A stretch of DNA of 64,000 bases from Sclerodactyla briareus (lineage: Eukaryota > Echinodermata > Holothuroidea > Dendrochirotida > Sclerodactylidae): positions 310,001 to 374,000 of the forward strand of contig JAODTK010005923.1 in assembly GCA_026419785.1 (NCBI GenBank), given 5' to 3'. Numbering within the stretch: the stretch's first letter is position 1; every line of letters starts with the position of its first letter. Position numbers and translations under genes: made by a program. Positions 27,580 to 52,756 of this stretch are shown here, in pieces. The notes under the pieces are model-generated. The model worked only from the letters and a program-made list of their open reading frames with translations, did not search any database and had not been told where the DNA came from.

Positions 27580-27664
<85 letters not shown>

Positions 27665-34039: not shown

Positions 34040-34720
34040 TCAAAGCAACAGGTGAAAGTTGTGATAATTATAAGTCATGGATAATGTTGGGGATGACAAT
34101 TGCAATGGATGCTGATGGTTTTAGAAGTCTTATTAATTAGATGTAGGTCATGTGTTCATTTATTTAATTTCACATAACAGCATCAGAGGAACATTGCTTT
34201 CATTTAATATCCTCTATAGGCCTATTGTTGCCGGAACATTGACATTGTGGCTGTATTAACACTGCAAGGATCAATTAAGGGCACAGCTGTATCCAACTGT
34301 GAGCTATGGGATTACATATGTAGCCTACACACATGACTTTTCAGGAGCACGTTAAGGATGAGAAGATATAAACATCATCAGTTTTATCCAAATGTTTATG
34401 ATTTACCCTCAATTTTAGCCATTTTATGCTACCTGGCCATTTCCAAAACCTGATTTTATGATTTTATGCCACTCTGGGATGCCTGTCTAAGAGTATCATG
34501 GCGTTTGTGTGGGGACTCGCATGGAAGAAGATGATTAAGGTGATGATGATAATGGTACAGATAAGTCTATGACGAAGGCAACAATTATGAAGTTGACCTG
34601 GGGGTAGGAACATGTAATGATGAGGGATCATTGAATGGTGATGACAATAGAAGCTTACCCAGTAAACCAGCGGCTCTTGTAGCTCTCTTCTATCCACATC
34701 GTAGATGATATGTTTTACTG
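34040..34720. repeat. Segmental duplication, copy 1 (broken by ~350 bp insert)
   Basis: Blocks AAAGTTGTGATAATTATAAG, TGATGGTTTTAGAAGT, then after an unrelated stretch (about 34,130-34,480) AGTATCATGGCGTTTGTG, ATGGTACAGATAA and CTTACCCAGTAAACCAGCGG. The same blocks occur in this order at 37,130-37,513 and 40,580-40,911. Confidence 0.75.
34659..34717 (-). pseudogene. PAXIP1-like: BRCT5-like exon, duplicate copy 1 (3' half)
   Basis: On the minus strand, CATTACATCAG is followed by a 59-nt exon-like segment and then GTAAGC. It encodes, with a two-base deficit near the middle, a KHII segment and then MWIEESYKSRWF, the tryptophan-containing last helix of a BRCT fold. Known PTIP proteins have a similar KHI-x-x-P-x-W arrangement in BRCT5. 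The upstream half of the exon (CTHLV and RTVNFLC segments, present at 37.4 kb) is missing here. The net frame is disrupted, so I score it as a damaged duplicate, though the missing bases could be consensus errors. Confidence 0.55.
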
Positions 34721-34955
34721 ATGTAATGAATATATGGGTAGAAATAAGGTCCAGAACCCCAATTGTGGATTATCACAAAGTTATCAAACGAAATGTAAAC
34801 TACACGTGCTAGAGAATAAAACACTCCCATTTCTTCTATCAATTAAGTTACTTGTATAGTGGTAAAATGATACGTAAGCCACAGTATATCAGCGTACAGT
34901 GATTGCTAAAAAACTAGGGACTTCATTCCAGTGTTTGCTACGTGTATTATTTCAG

Positions 34956-35190
34956 GGCCTGTTCTCGCGCTGAATAGAACCATAACAATAGGTTTGACAT
35001 CGCTCAATACCAGCGGGCTAGAGCCGGGGCACTGGCAGATTATTTATGACCTATTTATTGTACACAATACAGGCCTGCTGAGGTGTGGGAGGCGTCCCCT
35101 GGAGCTTCCCTTTGCCATACTCTGCCAACAATGGGCCATTCATAGCAGCCACACTCATCCCTCCGAACGACCTGCGGTCACCAGCCAATA
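34956..35190 (+). CDS. Weak terminal-exon candidate, unknown protein
   Basis: GTGTATTATTTCAG, a good acceptor, precedes an open frame of about 77 codons ending in a TAA that overlaps AATAAA at 35,187. The encoded segment has no motif I recognise. It would be on the strand opposite the BRCT gene and inside its span. Chance occurrence is quite possible. Confidence 0.15.
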
Positions 35191-36189
35191 AAATGCTTTA
35201 GATAACATCCCATATCTCTCTACCGGATTAGTTATCTGTTACATTATCCATTTGGAGGTGGATCTGGTTAATGGATTGCAGGCTTTAGTTTGTAGTGTGG
35301 TCTATTTGGTTCGGAGTTATGCCAGCATCTGATCCATGATGTTTCTCAAATCCAGGGAGAGGCGTTGAGCATAGTACTTCTCCCAATGGCCCGTAATGAG
35401 CAGGTAATTGCCTTGGTCATTATCTGTTTTCACATTAAATCATGCCACTCAAGCACTGATATTTTGGTCCCAACAGAAGCACAGTCACATTGGCCTCCCA
35501 ACTATTTTGTTCTAAAATCTGTCGTCTTTTGACCATCAATCAAGATCAGTGCTGTATTATACGGATGTATTATTCATATGTCCTCAGAATCTATTTTTTG
35601 CTTCTATTAATCTGTTGTGGAACATATGCATATCACTTCATACATGTGGATAATTCCACCAAATCCACCACCAGACACCTGCTTCAATGAACGCACACCG
35701 CATACGTAAAGCGCATGCGTACGTACAAGTTGGCATCCTTGCAGTGACCTATTGTTAGAAACGAATACAGTAACGTGTATGAGAGGCATTTTGTTATTCT
35801 CACATAATGGCCTTCCATATGCCCTTCTAGGAATTTTGTTTTAGCTCCCTCTGTCGTGGTTGGAAGAGGTCAGGTCCCATGAAGATTGAATAGACAGATC
35901 GATCAGAATGATCAACCGAAAGATTTAGCTATAAGATAAATGGATAAAAGGACAAATCCAGTATACATATTTGCAGCATTTTCATTCATTACATTACCTA
36001 CCAGAAGTTTCTTTCTCCGGGCTATCTGCAAGGAATCTTCAAGCTTGAAAGTGAGAGGGACTCGACTCCGGGTCATGGAGGCCGGAAGTGTTGGGCCACC
36101 CCCCCCAACCCCCCCCCCCTCATCTAATGACTGTGGACAGAAAAAATGGAAATAATGACCAAGAAAAAAAAGGTGATGTAGAATGGATA
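35191..36189. other. No gene recognised
   Basis: AT-rich sequence with short open frames on both strands and a C tract near 36,108-36,118; no feature supported. Confidence 0.4.
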
Positions 36190-36574
36190 TTAAAGGTCAA
36201 GTCCAGCCAAAAATCTGTGAAAGTCCTATGATTGTGCATTGAAAATCATGCCAATCAAACATTTGTTTGCAGTTATAAAGCTGGTTCGGTTATAAAGTTA
36301 CCAATTTTTCAAAGATTATTCATTTATCACTGCAAGTTTCATTTTGCAAATTGGCAACATTTGATGACGTCATAGTCTACCAATTTTGAGACTTAAGGAA
36401 ATATGTCTTAACTTTTCCTCCCTTATAAGTGGTAGATATGACATGAAAAAGTTGCCAGCTTGCCCAAATCACCTAATTATATTGAAATTGAGGAAGCCCT
36501 ATCTTGTCACCCGAACGATGTTTATATAAACCTGGAACAAATGATATATCAAGTTTTTTTTATTCTCTCTTTAA
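36190..36574. mobile_element. Possible TTAA-flanked MITE
   Basis: Begins TTAAAGGTCAAGTCC and ends TCTCTTTAA. The outer six bases are inverted (TTAAAG / CTTTAA) and TTAA is the target type of piggyBac-like elements. The interior is AT-rich with a TGACGTCA palindrome at about 36,364. No coding capacity. The short inverted match makes this a candidate only. Confidence 0.4.
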
Positions 36575-37129
36575 CATTATAACCACAAAAAGAGTATTAA
36601 TTCGTACCTTCGCCTTTAATATTGATCAAACCTGATGTAGAATGAGCAATGACAATGATGTTGATGATGCGCATTGAACCGAAATCAACATTTTTCCCTA
36701 TGCACTCAAACAATGATAGAGCAGTGGTATTTCCGATGGTCGGATGGCCTTTGGGATGGCCAGGGATGCAGGAATGGTAGGGTAGGTAGGTCCAGTTGTC
36801 AGCTTTGTGATCGTCAGGTTCGCTTATTTGGCAAATGACACAATGTCCAGCAGACAAGTTGGGTGTGGGTCAGTGAAGTCCATACAAACATATTTGTTCA
36901 CAACAAACAGTTCCATCAATGATGCAGACCCATCTCACGATTTGTTCTGGACCCACTCCAACATCAACACCTGTGCTTGGGCCTTTGAATACTAGTAATG
37001 ATGTTTTTTAGGGTGTTGATAACAGTGTTAAGGATGAGGATGACCATGGAAAGGTAATTACCTTATACACGTAATATGAAGTAATGAAAAGATATTGCCC
37101 TGAGTGAGATGGGATTCTCATGAAGTTAT
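36575..37129. other. No gene recognised
   Basis: An 86-codon minus-strand open frame and a 62-codon plus-strand frame overlap here; neither shows a motif or clear splice pair. Confidence 0.35.
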
Positions 37130-37345
37130 ATAATGTAAGTTAGATAATGTTGGTGAGACAATTCAATTTATGATTTGGTTTTAGAAGTGAGTATCATGGC
37201 ATTTGTGGTGGGACTCCGACGCTAGAAGTGATTGATATGGGTACAGATAAAGGCGGATACAAGACAAGTTTATAAAAGTTTATGGGGGGGACATTGAAAA
37301 TGATGAGGATGATTGAAATGATGATGATACAAGCAATGAGCTCAC

Positions 37346-37513
37346 CCAGGAACCAGCGGCTCTTGCGCTCTTTCTTCGATCCACATCGGTGAGATGATTA
37401 TGCGACAGCAGCAGACACACAGAGGAAATTGACCGTACGGATAACCCTTAGTGGGCACCAGGTGAGTGCATTCTGAATATATGAAACCACCCGACCACAG
37501 CTTCTCAAAGTTT
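37346..37513 (-). CDS. PAXIP1-like: BRCT5-like exon, copy 2 (fullest copy)
   Basis: Minus strand. CTGTATTTGGTCCTCTAG is a strong acceptor, the exon is 168 nt, and GTGAGC follows as donor. Read across small frame changes it gives KTLRSCGRVVSYIQ (the Gly turn after helix 1), CTHLVPTK, VIRTVNFLC, HNHL/IIISP, then MWIEE, and in the neighbouring frame SRWFL. Gly-Gly turn, [C/T]THLV, R-T-x-[KN]-F-L-C and P-x-W-[IL]-E-[DE]-[SC] in this order define the PTIP/MDC1-type BRCT. It lies downstream of the other PTIP-like exons on the same strand. About four one-base changes are needed for one frame; these may be consensus errors or decay. Confidence 0.7.
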
Positions 37514-37552
37514 CTAGAGGACCAAATACAGAAGCTTTCTATCACTTGATTT

Positions 37553-37868
37553 GAACACACCTGGATACTGGCCCAGGCGGTGCAGACCTGGATACTGGGC
37601 CCAGCAAGGAAGCAGACCTGGATATTGCACCGAAGGAGCAGACCGGATTTACTGGGCCAGCAAGGGAGCAGACCTGTGGATATTGGGCCCAGCAAGGATG
37701 CAGACCTGGCATCTGGGCCCAGCAAGGATGAAGACATGGATATGGCCCAGCAAGGAAGCGAGACATGGATACTGGCCAGCAAGGAAGCAGAACTGGATAC
37801 TGGCACAGCATGAACAGACCTGGATAAATAAGGAAGCAGATCTGGGAAATGGCTCCAGCAAGGATGCA
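37553..37868. repeat. Minisatellite, unit about 30 bp (intron 5' of BRCT exon copy 2)
   Basis: About ten units of CAGACCTGGATACTGGGCCC plus AGCAAGGAAG. It shares its unit with the array at 41,010-41,645. The long open frames over it on both strands reflect a period divisible by three. Confidence 0.93.
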
Positions 37869-38164
37869 ATATAATCAATATCCCCCTTCCGCTTTCACGA
37901 TAGAAAAAAAAGCAGAAGGGGACCAAGATTATCCGAGTATTGTAATTCATTTGTAAACCCTACTAGGGGAAGTACCTGCTAACAAGATGGACATGTGACT
38001 GTACCCTGGGACAGGTCAGGATTGAACCACGGCGAAATCTATCCGGGTTGAACATGACCTTAGGTATCTTGTGTGGCTCCAACATCTGTACCGGGGGGGC
38101 TGGTGTCACAGAACATCAGTGTCAATCGCTTGAGCCGTCCTGAGGAAGGCAAAAAGTACACATT

Positions 38165-39160
38165 TATTGGATAGGTGTCCTTTCTGCAGGCTACAGGCTT
38201 GTATGTTGTTATTTTCTGGTATCCCATCTCACCAATGGTCATGAAGATTCTGGGCCAATCAATTTCCAGCCGTGCTCATGACTTTTCCGTGACCAAATAA
38301 AGGATTTGCATGACCTTCTCTATGGCATCTTGAACAGAATTCTCAATACGGAATGAAAAAAAAAAAAAACCCAACGCAACAACAGCAAAAAAGCTGTGAA
38401 AAAAGTGACACACATCCACTAAAATTCCTGACTTTTTCATGACTCAACAACTTTCACTGATTTCAAAAACTATCCAGGCCTGGATTTTCATGATGAAATT
38501 CCATGACTTACCAGATTTTCCAAAACTGCGGGAATCCAGCAGTCACCACATACCCCCACAGGACAGTTCAACGCACCTCCCTCAACCCCAATGCCCATAA
38601 TCTTTCGTACACCGCAACTCTCTGAGAAGCCACACACAGATGGGATGGGTGTCCTGGCAGGCTACACATGTTGTACTGTGGGTATTTTTCTGGTTATCAC
38701 AATCACCAATGGTTCCGGCAGATTGGGCATCACTTTCCAAGGCCTTTCTATGACTCTTCCCATTGACCAATCCAAGGCTTTGTTATGACCTTCTCTATGG
38801 CATCTTGCACAGAATTCTCATGACAAATGAAAAAAAAAAAACTCAAAGCAACACAGCAAACAGCTGTGAAAAAAGTGACAACTCACTAAATTCCTTGACT
38901 TGTCATGACTCTAAACAACTTTTAACTGAATTCAAAAATTATCAAGCGGCTGGCATGGTTCATATGAATTCCATGACTTTACCAGATTTTCCAAAACTGC
39001 GGGAACCCAGCAGTGAGTCACACATACCACACAGGACAGTGCTCACGCACCTCCCTCAACACCCCCAATGCCCAATTCCTCTTTCGTACCCCCGCAACTC
39101 TTATGAGGAAGCCACACAAGACTGGATGGGTGTCCTGGCAGGCTACAATCTGGCACTGTA
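38165..39160. repeat. Tandem duplication, unit about 475 bp, 2.1 copies
   Basis: Units start at about 38,165, 38,641 and 39,119 with GGATGGGTGTCCTGGCAGGC-type sequence. Shared internal marks: TATGGCATCTTG(A/C)ACAGAATT, an A tract, CAGCTGTGAAAAAAGTGACA, ACCAGATTTTCCAAAACTGC and CGCACCTCCCTCAAC. It lies within the inferred intron of the PTIP-like gene. Confidence 0.88.
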
Positions 39161-39354
39161 GTTACCTTCTAGCACACATGTATCTAGCACCCCTCACCCC
39201 CTCGACAGTTTACTACCCCCCCCCCCCCACACCCCAACACACCACAGGGGTTCTGGGATATATAGTCACAAATGCTAGAAGCAAAGGAAATGTCATAATT
39301 GATGTCTAACTAATTTCCAGAGATAAGATATTCAGGCTAAGTTGACATCATGAG

Positions 39355-39425
39355 TGTGTGGCCGGGCGGGGGGAGAGGAGGGGGGGGGGGGGAGAAAGAG
39401 GGGGAGGGGGCTGGGTGTGTGCCTG
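39355..39425 (+). other. G-rich stretch with G-quadruplex potential
   Basis: Many G runs of four or more on the plus strand (GGGCGGGG, GAGGAGGGG, AGAGGGGGAGGGGG, GGG) separated by one to eight bases. Similar runs occur near 40,744-40,775 and 45,957-45,981. Confidence 0.6.
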
Positions 39426-39839
39426 GGTAAAACTCACACTATGACTCTTGCTAGGATTGGGTGGGGCTGTCGGTTTCCTCTTGATGCTCATCTAGGCCAT
39501 GAATCTCTTACAGGAGGGGAAAAAAGGATTGTGATGAACCATTATCGCATCCAGGTGGGTGGGCAACAGATACAGAACTCTGCTCATCATTATTAACTGC
39601 CCCTGAAGGTGATGAGGCTAACATTGACAGATCAGCCGACGTTGATTAAGTAAGGCTAAGGATCAGTACTAGATGTAACCACAGGTTGGCAACACTGCCT
39701 AACATTGGCAAATCGAACACAGCCAACGTGCAGCAATTCAAGAATAATGTGTTACTAGGTTAAAAATTGGACAACAATTAATATAGAACATGTGCAGGGG
39801 GTGTAACCACCGAAAGTTATAACCCCGCAAAAACCTTTT

Positions 39840-40260
39840 GGACATTGTTTAAAGGAGCACATTCAAATTATTCCAATTAACGTCAGTGACTTCAAAATGT
39901 CCTACCAGCTGTTCAGGGTCTAATGTGGTCCTCATCCCCAAGTTTGGCTTTGAATAAAACAACGCTACTATCGCATGAGTGGTGCCACATTTTGACGTCC
40001 GGTGACATTGAAATGACCTTACATGTTGTTAAGGACTTTCAAAAACAGTTCACTCCAGGACATCAACCAAGGTTTTGTTCAAAAATCCGGCCCATGTTAG
40101 AAAAAACACAAATTTCACCTTGAAAATCACCTTGAAATCAACGTCATGTTTTTCGGGACCAACTTTGTCCCCACCCCCAAGGTTCGTGTAAATTGGATAA
40201 AACCCGTATTACTTGATCTTCGTCACGTCCAGTGTCCCGGGGATTATAATGAATTGAATT
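39840..40260. repeat. Dispersed repeat related to the GGGACCAAC family
   Basis: Contains CCTTGAAATCAACGTCATG, TTTTTCGGGACCAACTTTGT, CCCC and GTTCGTGTAAATTGGATAA. Matching segments occur near 18,030-18,110, 19,750-19,830 and 62,560-62,640. The core is a short inverted repeat (GGGACCAACTTNGTCCCC). No coding content. Confidence 0.45.
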
Positions 40261-40819
40261 TTTCCCCAATGAAAGTGTTCAGAGACTCGCCTTGCCTGAA
40301 CATGCTGTAGGTAACAAGCAGTGAGTAGCCGAAGTACATTTAATATGGTTGTTCACAGATCCCTCTAATTTATCCAGTTCTGTGTGATGCTTGGATTCCT
40401 AGCAGCATTAGGTTACATTATTTTAAGTCCCTGGAAGCCATATCAAGGCTCCAGGAACCCTGCAGTAGGATCATGGATTAGCACTGGCGATATCTCGCCT
40501 TCCCTTCTCAACTAGTGCACAGAAGATATAAGAAGTTGTTACCAATCTCAATATGCTCATGGGACTGATAGGTTTTCTATCTACCTGAAAGTTGTGATAA
40601 TGTTGGTAATGAAAGTTAAATGTATGATGATGGTTTAGAAGTGAGGTATCATGGGTTGTGGTGTGGGACTCAATGCAAGATTAAGGAATGATGGATAATG
40701 GTACATATAAAGGCAAATGACGAAGACAACAATTTATGAAGTTGAGGGGGGCGGGGGGGGAGGGGGGGGGGGGGAACATTGATAATTATGAGGATGATGA
40801 AGTGATGATACAAGCTTAC

Positions 40820-40911
40820 CCAGGAACCAGCGGCTCTTGTAGCTTTCTTCTATCCACTCGGTGAGATTATATGCGAAGCAGCAGACACCACAGAGGAAAT
40901 GACCGTAACCC
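40820..40911 (-). pseudogene. PAXIP1-like: BRCT5-like exon, duplicate copy 3 (3' part)
   Basis: Minus strand, donor GTAAGC at 40,819-40,814. The exon reads TVISSVVSAASHIISP in one frame and, one base shifted, EWIEESYKSRWFLG. Restoring one base (compare GATGTGG in the other copies with GAGTGG here) joins them into a normal BRCT end. Its 3' half is the cleanest of the three copies. The 5' half with the CTHLV segment is eroded or absent, and no clean acceptor is seen. It could be a usable alternative exon if the one-base gap is an error, otherwise a relic. Confidence 0.55.
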
Positions 40912-41009
40912 AAAAAGAATCTTTGTATTCACTTATTGAACTCAATAGGAATTTTGTGAGTATGAATGGAAGAACCTAATGGCAATGTTGAACCCACTCT
41001 ACGGGGCCA

Positions 41010-41645
41010 GCATGATGGGACATCTGGGGCCTGAATATCTGGGCCCTACAAGAATACAGGCCTTGATATTGTGCCAAGCAAAGTGCAGACCTAAATTTTC
41101 AAGGACCAGCATGGGTATCAGGCCTGGCCTATTGGATACCAGCAAGAGGCAGACCTGGATACCGACTCCAATAACGACGCAGAATTGGATACTGGGCCAG
41201 CAATGGTTGCAGAACTGTATTTAAGGGTCTAGTTGGGATGAGGACTGAACCACGGGTCCGCAAGGGTGGTTTGCAGACCGGAACTGGGCCAAGCAAGGAT
41301 GCAGACCGGGAAACTGGGCCAGCAGGACGAAGCCCTGGATACTGTGCCCAAACCAATGGTGCAGACCTGGAAAGGGTCTAGTTGCGGATGAGGACCTGAA
41401 CCACTGGGTCCAGCAAGGGTGGTTCAGACATGGATACTGGGCCAACAGGATGCAGACCTGGATACTGGGCCCAACAGTGGTGAAGACCTGGATCTAGTTG
41501 GGAGGAGGACTCTGAAACACGGGGTTCCAGCAAGGGTGGGGTGCAGACCTGCGATACTGCGGACCCCAGCAAGGATGCAGGACCTGAGATACGGGCCCAG
41601 CATTGCGATGACCCGGTATGAACTGGGCCCAGCAAGGCGTGCAAG
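41010..41645. repeat. Minisatellite, unit about 30 bp, second array
   Basis: Same GCAGACCTGGATACTGGGCC / CAGCAAGG unit as 37,553-37,868, here longer and mixed with a second motif (GTCTAGTTG.GGATGAGGAC, TGAACCACGGGTCC) repeated about three times. Confidence 0.9.
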
Positions 41646-41784
41646 ATATATTATCCCTTCTGGGCATTACTTTGGGGTGTGGGGTCAATAAGGGGTAAGT
41701 GGGTACGTAAGAAAGTTGGTGACATCAAATAGATTGACCCAACTCTGTATTAACAAGAATAGAATGTTGAAACAAAACCTGGTC

Positions 41785-41860
41785 TAGGGCCTGAGTGATT
41801 ACACTAGTAAACTCATAGGTTGTGGGTTCGTGATTCATGAAGAAGCATGCCTGTGTTCTT
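41785..41860 (+). mobile_element. tRNA-like SINE head, isolated
   Basis: GCCTGAGTGATTACACTAGT resembles an A-box region and GTGGGTTCGTGATTC a B box, about 45 bp apart. No body could be matched to families A, B or S. A reversed B-box-like GGACTCAAATC lies at 42,158-42,168. Confidence 0.35.
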
Positions 41861-43780
41861 ATCTAAGACCAGGAAGAATTTAATTGACTGCCCAGTAGTG
41901 GTAGTCTGAGTGATCAGGGAAAGTTTAGTGGGCGCGAGCTACCATCATCTACTATCATTGTTCCAGATAATTCGGCAAGCTAGGTTAAATCCCAGCCCAC
42001 TCAGCTTGTGAGGTAGTGGCTAGTGAAGGTAAACGATGGTGTGGAGGACCCAACCCCCATGAGGGGCCCAACGCCTCGTGCCGTAGGCTGGATGGTGGTC
42101 CTTGCATTATGTAAGGGTCTGACTTCTGCCTGGATGGTACAAGTACATACAGGACGACAGGACTCAAATCTCCGACATCGGCACCTAAGAACTTGGAAAT
42201 CCCCCAGAAAATTAGAAATTTTCAGTTGGATCTCCCGATTGGATGGAAGTTATCAATTCTGTTCCCTGGGAACCTTGTTGTATGAAGGTCACCAATACTC
42301 AAGGAGTGAGAACGACATGTGGAGAGGAGTGGTTGTTCATGCCACATTCGGTGGAAAATTCTCCTTAACGTCATAACATTGTAATTGGTATCACGGACTT
42401 GACATTTTTGTTCCACCATTTCATGACTAGGATGATGATGAACTCCTTCTTGTTTCCATGTACTTCCTTTAATAATCTAAACAAGGATAAGATGATACTA
42501 AAATGGACACAGTCACACAGCCATAGTATATATTCCTACTTCCCTGACTAAAATGGTACAAACATCGTGTGCTATATTCCTACTTCCATGATCTTTGATA
42601 CAGACCGTCCTTCTTTGCTTGAAGTAGACAGACAGAGAGACAGCGGCATGTGACCTTACATATTCCTTGCACATGGGGGATGAGAGGGAAATTGCAGGGG
42701 GAAGTGTAGTGCCCGCCAGGGGGTTTCATTGCCTGTTTGCCTATCAATGAGGAAAGTCGACATACCTGGCTGGTTCAGCTAAGTGAGGATATGGATATAC
42801 TAGACACATACCATACAAGCTGCACGTGCTCTTAATCACTTAGCAAACCTTACCTAAAATCACCAAGGATGGGAGTGCACAAACTCAAACTACAAATAAA
42901 TCATCTACAGAACAGTAGCACAACAAAACCATTACTCAAGAGATAAGTTTCAGTCTGGATTTGAGAGTATTCACATTGGATGACATGAGAAAAGCATTGG
43001 TACAGCGTTACACAATGAAGCAGGAACCGATGTTGCTGTAGCTCAAACCAAATAAATGTAGCAATGAGTCTTGTACATGCGAAAGTTTGAGCTGAAAACT
43101 GGTACACACCCGAGCACCATGTTTTAGCATTAACTGATCTGAAGAACACAGATTGAGTTACCAGATAATGAAGCAGCCTCGATAGATAGGAGCGAGACGT
43201 AACGAAAGGAGTAAAATCTGTTATGTTATGATTATCGTGCCACAGGAAGCAAGTGAAGGTCATGAATGAACGGAGTGGATATTGAATGCCAGCACCAGGA
43301 TAGTGACTATGAAGCGCCACCACCAACTATGTTCTCCAAATAGAGCCACAATGAAATCAGACTGAAAGTCTAAAACCAAATTTTGTTGGAGTCGTGACCT
43401 CTGACGATCAGGAACATCAGGGAATCCCACCTTATCCATTCTCATGTTTGTGTAGACTATTTCTGCTTGGATCATATGGTGGTTACATTGTTCTTGTGAT
43501 CAGGTGGGAAAACTAAGGGGAGGGAAAGAAAGGGATATCACTGCCTAATGCTGGAATCCCTAAAGGTAGGATGAGTCAGGAGGGACATTCCCTCCCAAAA
43601 AATTTGGGTTTTGGGGTTGTTAGCGTACTGCATATATGCAAGTCCCTCTTTTCACTTCCATAATCCTTCTTTAAAACTAATCAGGGGAGGGATTTCCCTC
43701 CTGAGATAAAAGATTATGCAGAAACAGCTTTTGTTATGTATGCACATAGTACTGGGAATCAATGTTCTAATTAAACACCA
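41861..43780. other. No firm gene; one membrane-type open frame
   Basis: The minus strand is open at 43,475-43,260 (71 codons) with a soluble first half (MDKVGFPDVPDRQRSRLQQN) and a hydrophobic WWWRFIVTILVLAF segment. An adjacent overlapping minus frame is open to 42,901. I recognise no family and see no donor, so it is noted rather than called. It falls in the inferred intron between PTIP-like exons. Confidence 0.2.
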
Positions 43781-44152
43781 GCTTGAATGGATAAGGAATC
43801 TGCGCATAAAACTGGTACTCAGTAATTATCCCCCCCCCCACCCCACCACAACCCCCATTCTTACTTCCCCAATAACCTCTGATTGGCTACCAGGGGAACA
43901 CCTCGTCTCTGGGTGTCGCAGAGTATGTGAGTGATCCTGTCAGAGTAACAATCACACCATGCTTGAATGGATATGATTAGCATACAACAGGTACTTCATA
44001 CTTATTACTTCCCCCCACCCCCCTCATTAACACACATTCCTTACTGATACCCCATAACCTCTGATTGGCTCACCAGTGGAACACCTTCAGTCCTTCGGTT
44101 TGTCGCAAAGAGTATGTGAGTGATCCGTCAGAGTAACATCATTCACAGGACC
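43781..44152. repeat. Tandem duplication, unit about 180 bp
   Basis: Two copies beginning GCTTGAATGGATA at 43,781 and 43,961. Each has a C-rich run, CCTCTGATTGGCT, GGAACACCT, GTCGCA and GAGTATGTGAGTGATC near the end. Confidence 0.85.
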
Positions 44153-44498
44153 GCCGTGTTGATGGAAACCTGTGGGAGAAAATATGCCAATACAGATAAT
44201 TTAACATCTGAAATGAAACTTCCATGGAGATTTCTTTCAAGAACGTGGCGTGGTTTCACTGCATGACTCACTACCAAAGGAGTATCTTTAGTAGGTTCCT
44301 ACTAAATGAAACAAGTTCTAGATTATGTTGAAGGCTCTGTATGAGTACACTTAGGGAATAATGAGCGAGATCGGCCAGTTGTTGACAGAATGAAGACCGC
44401 GGATGCGTCATAATCGGAGGTTAGAAAGACCCGAATGGTGGATTAAAAAATTAGTTCAACGTTTTGTTATGGAGTAGAAGGAATAATCCTTTCCTTAC

Positions 44499-44608
44499 CG
44501 CAACAGTTGTTGCATAAGTGGAGTGAGGAACAGCCCATGCCTTGATATGCACGATCTCAAGCGACAGCGTTCGACGGAGCGGGATGTAGCATCGCAGGAC
44601 CAGGAATG
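44499..44608 (-). CDS. PAXIP1-like: Putative PTIP-like exon, linker between BRCT4 and BRCT5
   Basis: Minus strand: CTTGCTCATTCATGAG then a 110-nt open segment, then GTAAGG. The open frame gives FLVLRCYIPLRRTLSLEI and continues LEIVHIKAWAVPHSTYA. PTIP proteins have a short helical stretch after BRCT4 with the pattern L-x-L-x-x-L-x-A-W-x-V-P; the LEIVHIKAWAVP segment fits it. The acceptor lacks a strong pyrimidine tract. Its position between the BRCT4 and BRCT5 candidates supports the call. A chance match over a dozen residues cannot be excluded. Confidence 0.4.
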
Positions 44609-44999
44609 CTCATGAATGAGCAAGATGACATTAGCAGTCAGTTGTACACACAAACACTAGGCAGGACGAAAGGCTTCCGACATTCCTACCCAAATGCTAC
44701 ACAAACTATCTGCACTATTTCAATGGCTGTCAGCCGAACAACAGAAATAAAGGCAAGGAATAGCAACATATGATGTTAGGTATGAGACGGTGCTAATAAG
44801 GTGCTAATAAGGTGGTGTGAAATGTTTTATGCCTAAATTCTCAGAAGAGGGCAATCAATAGATGAAAGCATTTCTAAAACCATGTGATCACAATACCTCC
44901 CAATAAAACCAGCAAGAGACGGTGGTGACTTTGGCAGGGAGCATTAGTATAAACAGGACAGGTATGGGCGGCTGATAAGCAAATCATGACCATCTCATT

Positions 45000-45149
45000 A
45001 GCCAAATCAAGAGGTTCAAAGGCTGTATAGGTCCAGGTATTTCAAGTTGTTCTGCTGCTAGAGCAACACACATACTGCAGAGGGGCAGTTTGTTCATAGC
45101 TGAGGCAAGTGATATGGCACGAGCACAGACTTGATCAAGGCGGTAATGC
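45000..45149 (-). CDS. Possible further exon of the same gene, not identified
   Basis: GTTAGGTTTTTCCAG is a very good acceptor at 45,150. The minus strand then stays open about 54 codons to a TGA near 44,988 (start HYRLDQVCARAISLASAMNK; later an alanine- and leucine-rich segment and LEIPGPIQP). It lies between the BRCT4 and linker candidates, but I cannot match it to PTIP. The lower boundary is a guess. Confidence 0.22.
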
Positions 45150-45183
45150 CTGGAAAAACCTAATGACTAAGAATCAAAAATTA

Positions 45184-45373
45184 AATGAATAAATTATCCC
45201 AACAGGACAATATAGGTGCAAAGTTATGAAACCATTCCAGATCTATTGGTGTTTTTGTTTTTTGAATATAGGAGCAAAAATAGTTTGACGCACAATCAAC
45301 AATAACATGCGCACTTGACAGGGGAATATAACCTTGATGGTATTCGAGAAAAACAGCCATAACAGTGTAGTGG
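45184..45373 (-). CDS. PAXIP1-like: Putative PTIP-like exon, BRCT4
   Basis: Minus strand, acceptor-like AATTACCTAG at 45,374, open for 63 codons to TAA at 45,181-45,183. It carries MAVFLEYHQGYIPLSSAHVI, resembling the M-A-x-x-x-x-x-x-Y-x-G-Y-[LI] plus hydrophobic beta strand of PTIP BRCT4, and 20-odd residues later TPIDLEWFHNF, resembling the conserved [IV]-P-x-x-x-x-W-[LF] helix. The donor is not clear, so the lower end is uncertain. The exon follows the BRCT3/4 segment at 45.6 kb directly, as expected. Confidence 0.42.
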
Positions 45374-45518
45374 CTAGGTAATTATCATATTAGGAAGTGA
45401 GAGCTCTCTGACAAGGGTACCCTGAGTTCACATTATTTAATTAGCCTTTACTTAAGATATTCATCCATGACGCCAACTCATCCGATTCACTCTGTTGGGC
45501 CAGAGAAATGAGCCTTCA

Positions 45519-45666
45519 AAGCTCGATCTGGCCGCGTGCCTTAAGGCTGTCCCTCTGACTGAACCCTGACAACATGATGCTGTAACCACATGGTGTATAA
45601 CATGCCCTGTCATCAGAACGGAGTGGAAGAATCAAGCCCTCGTCAGGACGACTGATCCAGTGCTTG
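45519..45666 (-). CDS. PAXIP1-like: Putative PTIP-like exon, end of BRCT3 to start of BRCT4
   Basis: Minus strand, acceptor CCCTGCTCTCAG at 45,667. The frame gives KHWISRPDEGLILPL, a short linker, then TPCGYSIMLSGFSQRDSLK. PTIP has a tryptophan, a short P-rich linker ending in P-C, then I-x-x-x-G-F-x-x-x-x-R-D-x-L-K as the first strand and helix of BRCT4; the second part fits well, the linker less so. The frame meets TGA at 45,516-45,518. The true donor was not found, so the lower limit is the stop, not a splice site. Confidence 0.42.
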
Positions 45667-45788
45667 CTGAGAGCAGGGTTACTAACGTTCAAGCAGCAGA
45701 AAGAGGGATCCCAAAAGGTATGTCATTATGGCTTCGATACAGCCATCATCTCAGGGGAAAAAAAGAGTTATTAAGAGAGATCACTAAC

Positions 45789-45882
45789 CCTGGCCAGGAA
45801 CGGATGGATTCCAATACTGACCAGCGTTGAGGGTTACTCAATGATCAGGAAAAAACAGCCCAACATACACTGCGTTGGTTCA
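45789..45882 (-). CDS. PAXIP1-like: Putative PTIP-like exon, start of BRCT3
   Basis: Minus strand: AACTTTATTTTCAG is a strong acceptor. The 94-nt segment encodes EPTQCMLGCFFLIIE, then a TAA that becomes a Tyr codon if one base is restored (giving E-Y-P), then PSTLVSIGIHPFLA. The L-G-C-x-F-x-I-x-x-Y-P signature is characteristic of the first strand of PTIP BRCT3. A weak donor GTTAGT follows. Confidence 0.5.
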
Positions 45883-45899
45883 CTGAAAATAAAGTTCAA

Positions 45900-47755
45900 A
45901 ACATGGAATTTAGCCCCACAACATACTCACGTTATGGGTTTGAGTTGTCTTGTTGGAGGAGGGGGGGTGGGGGGTGGGGGTCGATTATGAATATTGTTAA
46001 ATTTTCTCACTGTTCTCTAAGGGTGTCATTCCTCGAAAAGCCTCAGATTTTCAACTAAACTGAAAGTAATGAAACTGTTGATTTGGATCAGATTCACAAT
46101 GTGGTAGCATGAGAAAATTATTGTGAGGCTTTTTGTTCCGGAAGCCGTTATGGTGTAGCTCCGATGGTAGGGTTCATCTATCTTGTTTGTGGACTCATAT
46201 GAGCTAAGTTCAGTAGTTAACTATCTTTCCTTTTTCAATCCCACTGTTCACTACTTCCTCCTAAACATCAATTTCCATTCTCTCAACATCATTTTGCATA
46301 ATGGGATGCTCACCTGAATTATGCACAATAACATGCACAAATCCAAAGGCCTTTAATGCTGTGTACAAAAAGTATCAACATTCAGGATAGGTTTACTCCC
46401 AGTATCAAATTAGCCTCTTTATAACTGATCATGCAGTGTTTATTCATGCTTGAGCCCCATAGGTCACATACTGATGAAATAGGTCCAGTACTCTCTCACA
46501 TAGACATTCAGTTGTAACATACTCGGATGCAGCAAGAAATCATCCAGATATCAATTCAAATCGATGAAATCAATTTTGCTTTCTTTTTCTGCAAAATTAA
46601 GAATAATTGTAGCTAACAGAAACAGATGATGCACCTTGTGGCAGAAATATGTTTAATTCTTCCCATTGATAACCATATAAATGGGGAGGACATTTGCATT
46701 GGGATCATTATTCCTTTTTTTTTTCCACTCTACAAGAACTGTACTCACAGTTGGCTTGCTTGGTCGTACCATAATACTGGACAGTCGGGATGCTAGGTAT
46801 AACCCCAAAAGGTGGTGCTACAGTCCTCCTTTGGGAGAGTGGCAGGCCTTTCCACCAGCGATTGCGTTGAGTACCTGGAAATTTGCCGATGCATGCCGAT
46901 CCCCGGCACGCCGAGCCAGCCTTATGTTCCATTTGTAATGTTCCTGAGAGTGGATCGTGGCGCACTTCTCTTTGCCCCACTCTGCCGGACCGCTGGCATC
47001 CGAGCGGGAGAGTGGGAGTGGGTGGCCAGAAGTCTTTGCCCTTCTTCTTCCCTTCTGTCGCTCTCGTTCTTCTTATGCTTTTCTGTTTCTTCTGCTTCTT
47101 GTGCTTCTTGTCTTTCTTTAGTGGCGACCAGCCTATTGCACCCTCACGCCGGGGCGTGTCAGAGCGTGGAGGGTGAGTGGGATGGGGGGCGTGGAAGATA
47201 TCTGATGCGGGATGTCCGGGGGGGGGGGGGGTGGCGACCCGGTGGGGAGGACACTCCTCAGGGGTAGGTGGGTAGATCAGGCATTGGTGTGATCCTTAAG
47301 CACAGAGGTAAATTCACGGTGTATGGGACTTTGGGGCACGCTTTCCACCTCCCAAAAGAATAAAACAAGCTTTCTTTTGTATTTGATTATATAAAGTAGC
47401 TGGTTTTCTTCACGACAGTGGCAGTGCGTGTCCGTACGACAAAAGTTTTTAAATCAAGAACCCATGACTAGTTATCAGGAGGGCAATATAGAACGAAAAC
47501 AGCATTATATATATATAGGGTACATAGTTAATAGGGTAAGGAGATTAACATGCACGAATGTTTGATTATGGCCATCAGGCATGTTATGAGACAATGCTAT
47601 TTGTTTCCTCGTCCCATCAGAAGGGGAAATCAAGCACCTGATAGTGATCACTCTACAGCTTTTGTCTTTGAGGTATATTCTTTTTTTCTTTATGCCATCC
47701 GTAAGCGAGTTGAGCAGCCTGGGTTGGATTTTGCGCTATAAACGACGTATATTAT
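45900..47755. other. No firm gene; GC-rich block 46,680-47,280
   Basis: Includes a G-rich run at 45,957-45,981. The block at 46,680-47,280 is GC-rich and open in several frames, with a pyrimidine-rich strip (47,040-47,120) and two GTGGCGACC motifs (47,123 and 47,232). A TTTGCGCTATAAACG motif at 47,728-47,742 followed by AT-rich sequence resembles a LINE/SINE 3' tail. No protein domain recognised. Confidence 0.35.
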
Positions 47756-48058
47756 TTATAATATTATAAAAGAGGAATGTACACCAATTTTATGAGGACT
47801 GAAATGGGCTGGACGCACAAGACTTTTTGAGAACCATTTTTTCATCTGTATCTCAGTATCTCTCCCCAACTTTTTTTCAGCCACCCGGAAGTAAGACCGC
47901 GACAAAGGAGGTTGAGAGGCACATTTCATCTGTCGCGCTAAGTGGAGGTCTTCAGATGCAGTTCCACCTGTTGTTGCCTCACCTTCCATGATCTGACTCA
48001 AACTGCTCAGACTCAGGACCGATTTGTGAGATCAACAGCGTCCACCCCCTCTACCCAT
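47756..48058 (-). CDS. Possible exon, PTIP-like inter-BRCT linker (unproven)
   Basis: Minus-strand open region of about 90 codons with ordinary protein composition: SVLSLSSLSQIMEGEATTGG, then charged and Ser-rich sequence including LARQMKCASQPPLSRSYFRV and EKKLGRDTEIQ. It lies between the BRCT2 and BRCT3 candidates, where PTIP proteins have a long, poorly conserved Gln/Ser/Pro-rich linker, so position is the only argument. CTGAGCAG could be an acceptor and GGAAG/GTGAGG a donor inside it, in which case only part would be exon. Confidence 0.25.
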
Positions 48059-48059
48059 T

Positions 48060-50098
48060 CCTGCTGTTCATGACCCTGATGATAAGAACATCAATGTATC
48101 AACTTTCAATGAATCAGTTAATGGAAATAGGATCAGTGAGCTGGCCTTCTACTCGTGGGGTGGGTGATAATTGTTCTATTACTGAAATAGGGACAAATCA
48201 CGAATGGGCAGGCTGAATAGAGAAAGAAGAAAATCGATTGGAATCACTGATTCCACAGGATTTCATGTCAGATTATTGTCGATTCAAAGGTACAGGATTA
48301 ATTTTTGAGAGGAAAGAAAATTACAAGGAAATAATAATTTTAAAGGTATTTTAGAATTAAGGGGGGGGGGGGGGGAATTTGCTTTTGCAATTTTTTCCGC
48401 AGTGAAGTTTCGCAGAACGAAGTTGGCCAATGGGAACGGATTGGGAAACTTAGTCATTAACACCCACCCCGTATTACCACTCCGCCATGCAAAACTATAC
48501 GATCAGTGTATACATTGGGTGAGTCATTCAAAATGAAACTCAAATATCTGTCCTTTGAACCTACAGCGCACGTTTGGAAAGTACTTTTTCTTTTTTTGAT
48601 CCAACGAACAGCACTGACTTCTGCATCAAAATTTTGGGAGAAGACAATCTTTTTTTGTATAATTCTAATTCCAATATGTGTCATATGCATAGACTTAAGG
48701 GGCCCCACAGGAAACTCCCAGGCTGTGGATAATGTATTCCTTGAGATACTGAGCAATTTGGATATGAGATGATAACGTTTTTGACGGATCCCTGATGAAA
48801 GAAACCTCTGCTGGGGAACCATTTTTTTTTCACTATAGATGTAATGTAACGAGAACAAATTTATGAAATCAAATGTTGCTTCTACTACAGATATGAATAA
48901 GTCAGAAGTTTGAGGAATATATAATGTATATATTAATATTTTAACATATGAAAGACTGATTTGGCAGTTTAAGATAGCCCTCTGACCTCTCCCTTGTCTG
49001 TATCCTCCTCATTCTTCTGCCCCATGTCTCGCTCTGCCTGTTCTTGCCTCCCGCCTGTTGTCTGTCTAGGTCTCCGGAGGTCAGAACGGAGCGAGGGTGG
49101 TAGCGACCCTCTCTAGAGGGTTGTTAGCGACCCCCTCTAGAGGGGCTGTTCTTCCACAGCAGTCACGCACCCAGCCCGGTCAGGGTTCACCAGCTTAACC
49201 TTGTCTCATGGTGGCTACTGCCACATTTGCTTACTTAGCCTGCAATGATGTAGAGCCAAAAATATACGTATTGGTCAAAATCATATTAATCATGGGATTC
49301 TTTGATTTAAAAATATTTTGTCAAAAGAACACACACACACAAAAATTGTCTTGTAGAATACTGCTACCTTTTCGTGCCCTGATATTTGTCAGCATATGCT
49401 CTTCTAAAAACATGACTACCAAAAATGGTGACTGAATATGGATCTGGCCCCTCCCTTAGCCCTTAGTGATAGGTCATTCTATGCAAAGAGCACAGTAACT
49501 GAAGCATGCAAGAGATTGCCATATCTGCCCATACTACTCTGAAAGCAGAGTGTGCAATGATGAAGATTTCAGTGAGGAAGGGGAAATTAAACCCTATGAA
49601 TGTCACCTGCTGATTGGCGACCTTTAACAAAAATGAATTACCAGAATAACCCCCCTTCTTATGATACATGTAACCTATTAGCAGTTAGCTACCACCAATC
49701 CACCAGTGCCAGCTGGATTTCATGGGCCTGGCCTCGCCACGGTCATCTAGGTTTCAGCAGGCATATCTCGTCAAGTGTAGTTTCAAAAGGTAATCAAACG
49801 TCAGTGCTATAGACTGCGGATAATACGGGTGTTTTGCAAGCGCTTGAGGGCCAGCAGTTTTGAGAAATGAACCAGAAAGGCATGATGCCAAATGGAACCA
49901 TAGAAGAGTCCGGTGGAGGAGGATGTTTGAGGAAGAAGGGTGCATCAAAATGGTGCAAGATAAGAAGATGGTGACAGTAGAGTGATGACCTCCAAACAAA
50001 TTTGCAAGTTGAGTGAATCAATAAGACTAATTGTTCTCAAATATATAAAGAACATGATAACTGAAAAAGCATAGCTTGAAAAAGTATAGCTTACTCAC
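48060..50098. other. Unassigned, inferred intron of the PTIP-like gene
   Basis: Contains a G tract at 48,361-48,375 and an open 133-codon minus frame (48,457-48,858) with no motif. At 49,104-49,150 there is a short tandem duplication of TAGCGACCC(C/T)CTCTAGAGGG. A proline-rich minus-strand stretch near 49,800-49,990 could contain the missing second half of BRCT2, but I could not identify it. Confidence 0.35.
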
Positions 50099-50213
50099 CC
50101 CAATGGGTTTTCCAGCAATCAGGTGTGTGCAGCCGACTGGGAAAGTTTGTAACACACTGCCCACCATAAAACGTTATCATCGCCCAGAGGGCATTACGGT
50201 CCTTGGTCGAAAC
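50099..50213 (-). CDS. PAXIP1-like: PTIP-like exon, first half of BRCT2
   Basis: The clearest exon in the window. Minus strand: CTATGCTCTGTTTCAG (strong acceptor), 115 nt, then GTGAGTAAGC (near-perfect donor). The first frame reads VSTKDRNALWAMITFYGGQC, the helix and Gly-Gly turn typical of PTIP BRCT2 (S-x-x-D-R-x-A-L-W-A-x-[IV]-T-[FY]-Y-G-G). Beyond this the frame shifts by one base: the next frame reads VGCTHLIAGKPIG, the following BRCT strand. Removing one C from the CCC at about 50,135-50,137 joins the two. The rest of BRCT2 should lie in a following exon at lower coordinates. As a BRCT adaptor, PTIP binds phosphoproteins in DNA-damage and H3K4 methyltransferase complexes in the nucleus. 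Confidence 0.87.
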
Positions 50214-51350
50214 CTGAAACAGAGCATAGAGAATTATATATCTTGAGGTTAGACTGCACATCAGCCTGAAGTCCATTACAGTAGTCCTTCTAAATTTCAA
50301 CATATTTTTCATATTGCTCACCACGCTACTTTTCCAATAGTGGAAGCACTTGCAGTTTATACGTTCACTATGAAGGCACAGTGTACATTGACTACTCATG
50401 AAGCATTCCATTTACCGTATTCCTTCTAGATTGGCCATTTTCCCATAAATGCCTGATAACATTTTTGAGAGATGACTACGATCTAGCTATGCCATGATAC
50501 ACGACAACAGATAACCGACACAACCCCCACACTCTCGTTCAAAGCTGTTGTTAGGCCCGGCGATCGAATACAACTTTGAACAGTGGAAGGCGTTCCTCCC
50601 AGCTTCTGTTCTGAAAAGATTGCAGCCTACACATTGCACAGTAAAAACAACTACAATTTGTGGAAGCGGGATTGGGGACGACATACGGTGTGTCATCGCC
50701 CATGCAAAGGCTTCTCTTCAACTTCCCTATTACCTATGACGTAGCGGTGAGCTCTTCCCTGCCAGACTTGTCCCCAAGTCAGTACTTCAAGAGAACATCC
50801 AGAAAATTTGAGGAAGTTTCACAGACATTATGGCGGGGGAAGAGCTCTCTAGCTATCTTGCTCGCACGGGCCGCCTCTGACAGCCATATGAGGATACTCT
50901 GCTGGAGCTGCTGAGACAACGTGATCGACAAGGAATAAAAATTGTTGAAAATTGGCAGAACTTCTGAACCAATTGTTCAAAGTCTGGCTAGAATCAACGG
51001 CCTGTATGTAGGCAGAGGTCAATTTTTGGACTGTCTGGAACCATTTTTCGCCGAGATGTGGTAAAAAACCTGGTTTGAACCCGTTCAAACTGTATAAAAC
51101 TTTATAGAACTGGCAAGTAGTGGCAAGAACTCTGACAACATTCAATAAGGTGAACTTGCTGTCTTATTCTGTATGGTAAATAGCCTGCTGACTTTCTCAG
51201 GAGAGGCAACACAACCAAGAAATATACTTAGCTCTTGGGCTACAGTATGATCGATGCACTTCCCAGTCAGCATCGATTGAAAACTTTTGTCCAACTAGGG
51301 GGGACCAAGTTACCGGCCTTATTTATGACATCACTGAAGACATCACTCAC
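50214..51350 (-). other. Intron between two PTIP-like exons
   Basis: Bounded by GTGAGT after the 51.4-kb exon and TTTCAG before the 50.2-kb exon. A plus-strand open stretch (50,548-50,914) and several minus frames are unexplained; one plus frame reads LLELLRQRDRQGIKIVENWQ near 50,896-50,960, but it is short. Confidence 0.6.
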
Positions 51351-51455
51351 CTGTTACAGCAGGCTACAACCTTGTTGAAGAGTGCCGCTGATGTCGCATG
51401 AATGGGTTCGGGGGAAAAGCAACGTCCCCACCTCATGACATCTTTATCCCTTAGG
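51351..51455 (-). CDS. PAXIP1-like: PTIP-like exon, BRCT1 to BRCT2 junction
   Basis: Minus strand: ATTCTGTATTGCAG, 105 nt, GTGAGTG. One frame is open throughout: LRDKDVMRWGRCFSPEPIHA, then LFNKVVACCN and two bases. PTIP proteins have F-S-P-E a fixed distance after the BRCT1 tryptophan, then [IL]-F-x-x-[VI]-x-A-C leading into S-x-x-D-R-x-A-L-W of BRCT2, which is exactly what the next exon encodes. The phase is off by one G at the junction: the exon leaves two bases (AG) while the next exon starts in phase 0, so one G is probably missing from the consensus. Confidence 0.78.
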
Positions 51456-51588
51456 CTGCAATACAGAATGAAATGTGATAATGTAGGTTATTTTTCTTCT
51501 AGTATAGTTCTTTTGACTCCACACTTCACCTTGTCTTAGTGCTCTGATTGATCTGGGAATATTAATCATGGTTTCACCCAGTCCTTAC

Positions 51589-51658
51589 CTCCTCACCCAC
51601 ATGGGCATACCGCATACCTTCTTCCACCTCAAACTCTGGCTCTCAGATACGGCTGTGC
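51589..51658 (-). CDS. PAXIP1-like: Putative PTIP-like exon, end of BRCT1
   Basis: Minus strand, weak acceptor TTGAATTAG, 70 nt, then GTAAGG. In the frame that splices in phase into the 51.4-kb exon it ends GMPMWV plus R-S; the distance from this tryptophan to FSPE equals that in PTIP as I recall it. Upstream residues in that frame do not look like BRCT1. The overlapping frame reads PEFEVEEGMRYAHVGEE, which is also protein-like, so an indel may mix the two. The intron to the next exon is about 130 bp. Confidence 0.4.
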
Positions 51659-51659
51659 C

Positions 51660-52756
51660 TAATTCAAGATCAATCATTTCACAATCGATCAATTATTAGG
51701 GCACTCAGTTCCGATTAGACCAAGTTCAAACCATTCACTCCAGTTAACCCAATGCCCTCTTTCCCTTTCTAACCACATGTTCAACTGGAAAGCGAAGAAC
51801 TAATCCAGACAGCCAGCTGTACTCAATCATGTGCAGATACAGTAAATGTTATCAATGTTACGTCCATGTGAAATTTCATGACCGATTCAGCATTCTCGTT
51901 TTAGGACATGTATGACCGCATAACAGAGTCTACCAACTAGCTACTACAACAAGAGCCACGTGTCGGGGTTACAGTTTATTAGATTGATAATGATATTGTG
52001 TTCCAAAGGTCATAAGGGAACCCCAGCAGTTCGACGTTGATGTACGTGTGCAGATATCTCTCAAAAAGTCCCCTGCCAAAAATTATGAATCCCGTCTACA
52101 CAAAACTCACCGATTCCCCCCATAATTATCACATAAATGCACCGAAAACATGGGTGAATTGCTTTGTGTTTTCGAAAGTGGTGCCACTATAAAATAAAAT
52201 AAAATAAAATAAAAATAAAACGAACTGTAACGATATTGCTATGAGGGATCTCATCCATTCGCCAACTGTTCAATACTGACCATGCACACTTAACAACCAC
52301 AAACAGGCTTATTCTATTATGTATTTCCAATTGAATTATCAATTATATTATGGAATAATTGCAAGACCACACTTCCATGTATTCCTTCCAACCTCCCCCC
52401 CCCGCCCCGACGTCCCCTTGGCACCACAATCTCCACACCCCCCCCTCAATCCCCTGCACCAGGGGGCTCTTCTAATGCACTCATCAGAGACGACAGTGAG
52501 CTCAAAGATTTTCTCTATCTTCACTGATCTCGGTGATCATCCCTCCTCAATCAATTGATAATTTCAGTCAATTGAGCTGAGAATGTGAGCTTGATTAGTC
52601 TGCTCAGAACATACGGTAAAAATAATCCCTACGGCTCCACCTGTTTAGCCTTAAAAAAAAAAACCCTACTTCCTCACGATTTCTACAAGACATATTTTAA
52701 GTAGGTATAACGACATTCACCCCCCCCCCCTATAGCTTATTTCCGTAGCCTCTTCC
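51660..52756. other. No gene recognised; (AAAAT)n at about 52,190-52,221
   Basis: The first exon(s) of the PTIP-like gene should lie in this direction, but I could not find them. A short AAAAT repeat and C-rich tracts are present. Confidence 0.4.

Follow-up and report, generated by a model that had tools for sequence, protein, structure and literature searches.

Short, frame-broken stretches resembling PAXIP1 (PTIP), a multi-BRCT protein of DNA repair and chromatin, lie on the minus strand of 64,000 nucleotides of Sclerodactyla briareus DNA, the whole of which we call the window. Do they make up one gene, is that gene PAXIP1, and does it still work? The earlier note had claimed a PAXIP1/PTIP-like multi-BRCT gene with frameshifted exons in order, and alignment largely bears this out. 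Frameshift-tolerant alignment of the window to human PAXIP1 gave a collinear chain on the minus strand with a score of 230; no shuffle exceeded 94 (n=80), and the plus strand and the reversed query scored 56 and 53. The BRCT5–6 part of the human query was checked against PDB 3sqd and is identical to it. The chain also holds 37864–37762 (in a minisatellite) and 32706–32568, neither of which is counted as an exon.

PAXIP1-like pieces run along the minus strand from 56.9 to 36.0 kb of the window, and their order in the chain is BRCT1, BRCT2, BRCT3, BRCT3–4 linker and BRCT5, as in PAXIP1. By identity, exon order and frameshifts, the locus is well supported as an ordinary animal PAXIP1, an expected member of an already known animal family. 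In all probability it is a real, working orthologue, likely intact, with frame breaks that are mostly insertion or deletion errors of the assembly. The protein presumably includes the missing BRCT4 and BRCT6, and the gene is presumably expressed.

The gene was noticed by a sequence reader although scanning all 319 Mb of the assembly for the Pfam BRCT domain returned no match. BRCT was also absent from a Pfam scan of six stop-free pieces of the window. The window contains no tRNA, and no Rfam family reaches its gathering score there. A COX1 search likewise gave no match.

Exons and a second copy

Part of the gene recurs on a second contig, C911; three long stretches there align collinearly with window positions 64000 down to 45885, at 78.5–80.2% identity. 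C911 repeats the BRCT1–2 exons, with indels at other places than in the window. The pieces are:

56895..56948, minus strand: start of BRCT1, KLFEDVHYYLIGTISDEV; score 44 to human PAXIP1 q11–28; coordinates are those of the matched piece
52486..52576, minus strand: second exon of BRCT1, C911 reading TQLIEEDESPEISEARGIFELPVVS; score 40 in the window, 60 on C911
51351..51455, minus strand: exon of BRCT1 end and BRCT2 start, VGTLLPPNPF..SSALFNKVVACC; AG and GT borders, stretch repeated on C911
50099..50213, minus strand: BRCT2 core exon, VSTKDRNALWAMITFYGGQC...CTHLIAGKPIG; AG and GT borders, one-base frame break
49100..49239 (end approximate), minus strand: second part of BRCT2, C911 reading KYKCAV..MRTSVKLVTPDWVRACVDE..RYHPRYV; collinear in the pairwise alignment
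45782..45882, minus strand: start of BRCT3, MLGCFFLIIE/(N)PQRWSVLESIRSW; score 45, AG acceptor before 45882
44089..44169 (end approximate), minus strand: middle of BRCT3, HQHGGPVNDVTLTD..THxLCD; score 39, AG acceptor
43909..43947, minus strand: partial tandem copy adjoining the BRCT3 exon, YSDRITHILCDTQ; score 44, 4/300 shuffles
42660..42732, minus strand: BRCT3–4 linker exon, AMKPPWRALHFPLQFPSHPPCARN; AG acceptor, GTAAGG donor
40820..40907, minus strand: BRCT5 exon copy 1, ..FLCGV..EWIEESYKSRWFLG, then gtaagc; score 59
37346..37496, minus strand: BRCT5 exon copy 2, ECTHLVPTK/VIRTVNFLCVSAAV..IISPMWIEE; frame broken two or three times
36002..36130, minus strand: exon after BRCT5, LHDPES..PLTFKLEDSLQIARRKKLL, then gtaggt; AG and GT borders
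34659..34712, minus strand: BRCT5 exon copy 3, 3' half only, MWIEESYKSRWFTG, then gtaagc; score 44, out of order

The 50.2 kb exon, which the earlier note had recognized by CTHLIAGK, matches human PAXIP1 in tblastn as two pieces (50234–50154 and 50170–50099; E 3e-7). The better piece reaches 43.9 bits; of 61 control queries, 60 of them shuffled and one reversed, none exceeded 26.9. Its frame-tolerant score is 129 (shuffle maximum 70, n=100), with 25 of 45 aligned residues identical. A phmmer search of this piece against PDB returned three matches, all with E 0.53 or worse and none a BRCT protein; the piece is short and frame-broken. The neighbouring 51.4 kb exon had been called solid. Its splice borders and its C911 counterpart hold, but alone it is weak, being equalled by 17 of 300 shuffles in its own interval (C911 copy, 7/300), and the FSPE motif once read there lies in the wrong frame, the PAXIP1-like reading being the one listed. 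Read by eye, the frames of these two exons fail to join in the window: the 51.4 kb donor falls after the second codon base and the 50.2 kb exon opens at a codon start, so one more break has to be assumed.

The BRCT1 start at 56.9 kb is equalled by 1/300 shuffles in the interval 53–64 kb, and its surrounding DNA is on C911 too (77% identity). The 52.5 kb exon is equalled by 2/300 shuffles in the window copy and 0/300 in the C911 copy; both copies have the AG acceptor, and the GT donor is whole on C911 and interrupted in the window. At 49.2 kb, where both copies again have AG, the C911 copy scores 69 (0/300 shuffles), the window copy by itself being non-significant (79/300). The motifs DRNALWA(L/M)xTFYGG and CTHLI of the N-terminal BRCT1–2 pair, taken from human PAXIP1, are present.

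For BRCT3, the proposed start MLGCFFLIIE(Y)P at 45.8 kb is upheld in its local interval, where 1/300 shuffles equals its score; on the whole strand it scores 42, under the shuffle maximum of 52 (n=60). This exon has no second copy because C911 ends before it. The BRCT3 middle likewise falls below the whole-strand shuffle maximum (51, n=60), and the tandem stretches 43775–43950 and 43954–44138 are 77% identical. The linker exon scores 70 (0/300 shuffles), although in plain tblastn its 26.6 bits do not exceed the control maximum of 26.9. BRCT3 and the linker motif RALHFPxxFPxxxPC, ahead of BRCT4 in human PAXIP1, are thus present.

BRCT4 itself had been assigned to SGFSQRDSLK (45.6 kb), EYHQGYI/LEWF (45.3 kb) and LEIVHIKAWAVP (44.5 kb). 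None of these stands: a BRCT4 query scores 29 in 44.2–45.75 kb, equalled by 206/300 shuffles, and the segments are not among the human PAXIP1 tblastn matches listed. Moreover, BRCT3 sequence and the BRCT3–4 linker lie further downstream, at 44.2, 43.9 and 42.7 kb. Of the seven places first listed, those at 51.4, 50.2, 45.8 and 37.4 kb therefore remain. Pieces beyond that list are those at 56.9 and 52.5 kb (BRCT1), 49.2 kb (BRCT2), 44.2 and 43.9 kb (BRCT3), 42.7 kb (linker) and 36.1 kb. BRCT4 was not found in 37.5–42.65 kb (92/300 shuffles as high), nor did BRCT6 match above shuffles in 20–35.9 kb (184/300 and 297/300 as high).

Diverged copies of the BRCT5 exon

The reading CTHLV/RTVNFLC/WIEESYK at 37.4 kb is borne out. 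In its own interval it scores 81 with two frame breaks (0/300 shuffles), and on the whole strand 84 with three (shuffle maximum 70, n=100), with 20 of 42 residues identical to human PAXIP1. The BRCT5 motif CTHL..KVxRTVxFL..P.W(L/I)EE, its human letters checked in 3sqd, is present there. The exon that follows, at 36.1 kb, scores 33 to PAXIP1 (15/300 shuffles) and 51 to MDC1.

The single odd feature of the gene is that the BRCT5 exon occurs as three diverged tandem copies. Copy 1 (40.9 kb) does not reach the best whole-query shuffle score, 70, and is 74% identical in DNA to copy 2. Copy 3 (34.7 kb), also below the shuffle maximum, is 75% identical to copy 1 and sits downstream of the 36.1 kb exon, which should follow BRCT5; at 34659, once given as the end of the range, lies this third, partial and out-of-order BRCT5 exon copy. 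Among the copies, exon identity is 84–88% and that of the following intron 69–70% (Fisher p 0.055, 0.011 and 0.0002 for three mutually dependent copy pairs). In contrast, differences between the window and C911 fall equally on exon and non-exon sequence. The copies at 40.9, 37.4 and perhaps 34.7 kb may have been kept as alternative exons, giving this animal PTIP forms that differ in the phosphopeptide-binding half of BRCT5, but we regard this as unlikely. If true, it would be a modest new point on PTIP. Literature searches returned nothing on PAXIP1 BRCT exon duplication or mutually exclusive exons, and nothing on PTIP BRCT domains in invertebrates or sea urchin.

Origin of the frame breaks

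Other genes of the assembly served as a yardstick. Four actin genes, read on both strands, carry 5 frame breaks in about 1.18 kb (C1260), 1 in about 1.04 kb (C2792, 242–249 kb), 7 in about 1.0 kb (C2792, 267–270 kb) and 19 in 826 bases (C2088). HSP70 pieces of 96–357 bases have 0 to 8, and PAXIP1 pieces of 39–136 bases 0 to 3. Since actin and HSP70 exons are also frameshifted, to very unequal degrees, decay of the PAXIP1 locus is unlikely. As a counterpoint, the actin gene with one break in about 1 kb is cleaner than the PAXIP1 pieces.

Between the window and C911 there are 1232 gap openings and 1713 substitutions outside exons (0.72), and 25 and 41 in four exons, exon and non-exon divergence being equal. 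The equality and the gap ratio fit sequencing error. Equal divergence is likewise expected of two unconstrained copies. Gap openings next to the same base number 648 of 1257, little over the roughly 44% that we estimate for random neighbours, so the gaps do not show a homopolymer bias.

A decayed pseudogene, with both copies dead, real frameshifts and relics of duplicated exons, would account for the breaks at 52.5, 51.4, 50.2, 42.7, 40.9, 37.4 and 36.1 kb, for the partly incomplete copies at 43.9, 40.9 and 34.7 kb and for the equal divergence of the two contigs; the nearly unbroken actin gene also speaks for it. We nonetheless consider it very unlikely. Three of the four actin genes and many HSP70 pieces break alike, and 0.72 gap openings per substitution is far above the roughly 0.1–0.2 of neutral decay. 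Amino-acid similarity persists once frames are followed, as at 50.2 kb. Splice borders, judged by eye, show AG at 8 exons and GT at 7 of 8. Finally, a search of the assembly with the 50.2 kb exon returned the window, C911 and one weak match, and no further PAXIP1 place. Assembly insertion and deletion errors are thus the most likely source of the broken frames. The case is a caution that gene decay can hardly be judged from the frameshifts of this assembly.

That the pieces come from another multi-BRCT gene, MDC1-like or TopBP1-like, with common BRCT motifs is more improbable still. MDC1 outscores PAXIP1 at 36.1 kb and reaches 61 at 37.4 kb, where PAXIP1 scores 84; at 50.2 kb PAXIP1 scores 129 against 48 and 45 for TopBP1, and the domain pieces follow PAXIP1 order. 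Chance matches picked by a reader expecting PAXIP1 might explain why three of seven places failed, but the shuffled chains, the tblastn E value and the second copy on C911 refute this reading.

The preferred reading is then a PAXIP1 orthologue spanning the minus strand from near 57 kb down to 36 kb or further, probably with at least 10 short exons broken mostly by indel errors of a long-read-like assembly. Its product would carry BRCT1, BRCT2, BRCT3 and BRCT5, presumably with BRCT4 and BRCT6. Judging from the PTIP family, it would bind phosphorylated partners through BRCT pairs, and would anchor to chromatin the MLL3/4 (KMT2C/D) H3K4 methyltransferase as well as DNA-damage factors, 53BP1 among them.

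Comparison with known BRCT proteins

TopBP1 BRCT1/2 (3olc) resembles the 50.2 kb exon in its BRCT2, with CTHLI (score 48; BRCT1, 45). Membership in TopBP1 does not follow, with PAXIP1 ahead by 129 to 48 and 69 to 29. The tandem BRCT of MDC1 (2etx) resembles the window gene around the RTVKFLC motif and in the exon that follows. MDC1 is known for a single BRCT pair at its C-terminus and is not known to have BRCT1–4; here BRCT1–3 pieces are present and the 37.4 kb exon favours PAXIP1, whereas the 36.1 kb exon favours MDC1. From human PAXIP1 the window gene differs in its extra diverged BRCT5 and BRCT3 exon copies, in BRCT4 and BRCT6, not found in the window intervals searched, and in an Asn replacing the Lys of RTVKFL at the 37.4 kb copy, a change that is uncertain in so noisy an assembly. 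With it the gene shares BRCT1, BRCT2, BRCT3, the BRCT3–4 linker and BRCT5, in the same order.

Identity of the minus-strand gene

The PAXIP1 query was a human sequence (657 aa, linker left out; BRCT5–6 part identical to PDB 3sqd). By tblastn against the window it matched the 50.2 kb exon across two reading frames (best piece E 3e-7, 43.9 bits); the highest score among 61 control queries (60 shuffled, one reversed) was 26.9 bits. Next came 37.4 kb (28.1 bits), while 42.7 kb, at 26.6 bits, did not exceed the controls. Because reading frames break within exons, we used a frame-change-tolerant local aligner written for this analysis. PAXIP1 scored 129 at 50.2 kb, 84 at 37.4 kb, 72 at 42.7 kb and 59 at 40.9 kb; the maximum for 100 shuffled queries on the minus strand was 70. 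On the minus strand the ordered hits form a chain scoring 230; 80 shuffles gave no more than 94, the plus strand gave 56 and the reversed query 53. Of the eight pieces in the chain, two (37.8 kb, inside a minisatellite, and 32.7 kb) were regarded as chance.

PAXIP1 was preferred to TopBP1 BRCT2 at 50.2 kb (129 versus 48), to TopBP1 at the BRCT2 exon of C911, another contig of the assembly (69 versus 29), and to MDC1 at 37.4 kb (84 versus 61); the 36.1 kb exon favours MDC1 (51 versus 33). With BRCT1–3, the linker and BRCT5 in order, PAXIP1 is the best fit, and the gene reads as an ordinary PAXIP1 orthologue. The earlier note's identification holds, with some exons wrongly assigned.

Exon pieces

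Each piece was compared with 300 shuffles inside an interval that we set from exon order.

Exon pieces, with shuffles scoring as high
56.9 kb, minus: BRCT1 start, 1/300
52.5 kb, minus: BRCT1 second part, 2/300
51.4 kb, minus: BRCT1/2, 17/300
49.2 kb, minus: BRCT2 second part (window copy), 79/300
45.8 kb, minus: BRCT3 start, 1/300
43.9 kb, minus: BRCT3 middle, 4/300
42.7 kb, minus: BRCT3–4 linker, 0/300
37.4 kb, minus: BRCT5, 0/300
36.1 kb, minus: exon after BRCT5, 15/300

With single-domain queries over the whole strand, most weaker pieces were not above 60 shuffles, so their weight rests on position. BRCT4 was not found in 37.5–42.65 kb (92/300 shuffles equal), nor BRCT6 in its expected intervals (184/300 and 297/300). 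BRCT4 had previously been placed at 45.6, 45.3 and 44.5 kb, where 206/300 shuffles do equally well and where it would precede parts of BRCT3. The FSPE motif read at 51.4 kb belongs to a shifted frame; the window/C911 pair gives the exon as VGTLLPPNPF..SSALFNKVVACC. Long G runs within the 36.1 kb exon (36096–36119, minus) are probably an assembly error.

A second copy and the cause of the frame breaks

A genome search with the 50.2 kb exon returned the window, C911:42201–42296 and one weak match. Three long pieces of C911 (46,388 bases), at 78.5–80.2% identity and with introns included, follow the window collinearly between positions 64000 and 45885; C911 is therefore a second haplotype or recent duplicate. 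It is clearer where the window is garbled: BRCT1 reads TQLIEEDESPEISEARGIFELPVVS (score 60) and BRCT2 reads KYKCAV..MRTSVKLVTPDWVRACVDE..RYHPRYV (score 69), each with 0/300 shuffles. Elsewhere in the window, a tandem duplication of about 1.75 kb (16544–20008; 81.6% identity, near that between C911 and the window) may represent two haplotypes placed one after the other in the assembly. A long 62–63-base minisatellite array lies in blocks at 21683–28409, with more pieces at 29.4 and 30.7 kb, and a 111-base unit is repeated 3.3 times at 53758–54234.

The window is positions 310001–374000 of contig C3166. The assembly (319,486,128 bases, 3171 contigs) contains actin and HSP70 close to human, and introns split coding pieces, both of which point to an animal genome; a search for COX1 found no match. 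Four actin genes served as a yardstick for frame breaks.

Frame breaks in actin genes
C1260: 5 in about 1.18 kb
C2792, 242–249 kb: 1 in about 1.04 kb
C2792, 267–270 kb: 7 in about 1.0 kb
C2088, 15017–15181 region: 19 in 826 bases

The last, far above the other three, reflects either a contig with much noise or an actin copy that is dead. HSP70 pieces on C2424 (41/82 to 80/89 residues identical to human HSPA8) carry 0 to 8 breaks per 96 to 357 bases. In the comparison of window and C911, the four exons (449 columns) show 9.1% substitutions and 5.6% gap openings, and the remainder 9.2% and 6.6%; of 1257 gap openings, 648 have an identical base as neighbour, which we estimate to be only slightly more than chance would give. 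Outside exons there are 0.72 gap openings per substitution, whereas neutral decay leaves far fewer indels per substitution. Since this ratio is so high and actin and HSP70 are also broken, to varying degree, we infer that the frame breaks are assembly noise, varying from place to place. That the PAXIP1 copies have decayed and the breaks are real is very unlikely; it keeps a small share because one actin gene is almost free of breaks, the 51.4 and 50.2 kb exons as they stand have no in-frame join, and dead copies would likewise give equal exon and non-exon divergence.

BRCT5 exon copies

A genome DNA search with 37100–37500 found three places only, diverged tandem copies of the BRCT5 exon with flanking intron.

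40586–40907, minus: copy 1 (40.9 kb)
37134–37496, minus: copy 2 (37.4 kb)
34491–34712, minus: copy 3 (34.7 kb)

The copies are more alike in exon (84–88% identity, 55 to 93 columns) than in intron (69–70%), which hints that more than one of them may be under constraint. Being a 3' half only and placed past the 36.1 kb exon, copy 3 is probably a relic. Copies 2 and 1 are each closely preceded, on the minus strand, by a 28–30-base minisatellite (37559–37826 and 41272–41599, respectively), and the two minisatellites are related. In copy 2 (37425–37439, minus) the RTVKFL lysine, which contacts phosphoserine, reads Asn, a reading not safe given assembly noise; a genuine change would alter the phosphoserine pocket.

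Relation to known PTIP

PTIP is described as carrying six BRCT repeats in tandem (PMC12842040), as a KMT2C/D complex cofactor required for complex formation, recruitment and H3K4 methylation (PMC12386242, a study in Drosophila), and as binding 53BP1 (PMC9509598). By analogy, the sea cucumber product would have the same roles, as KMT2C/D cofactor and 53BP1 binder.
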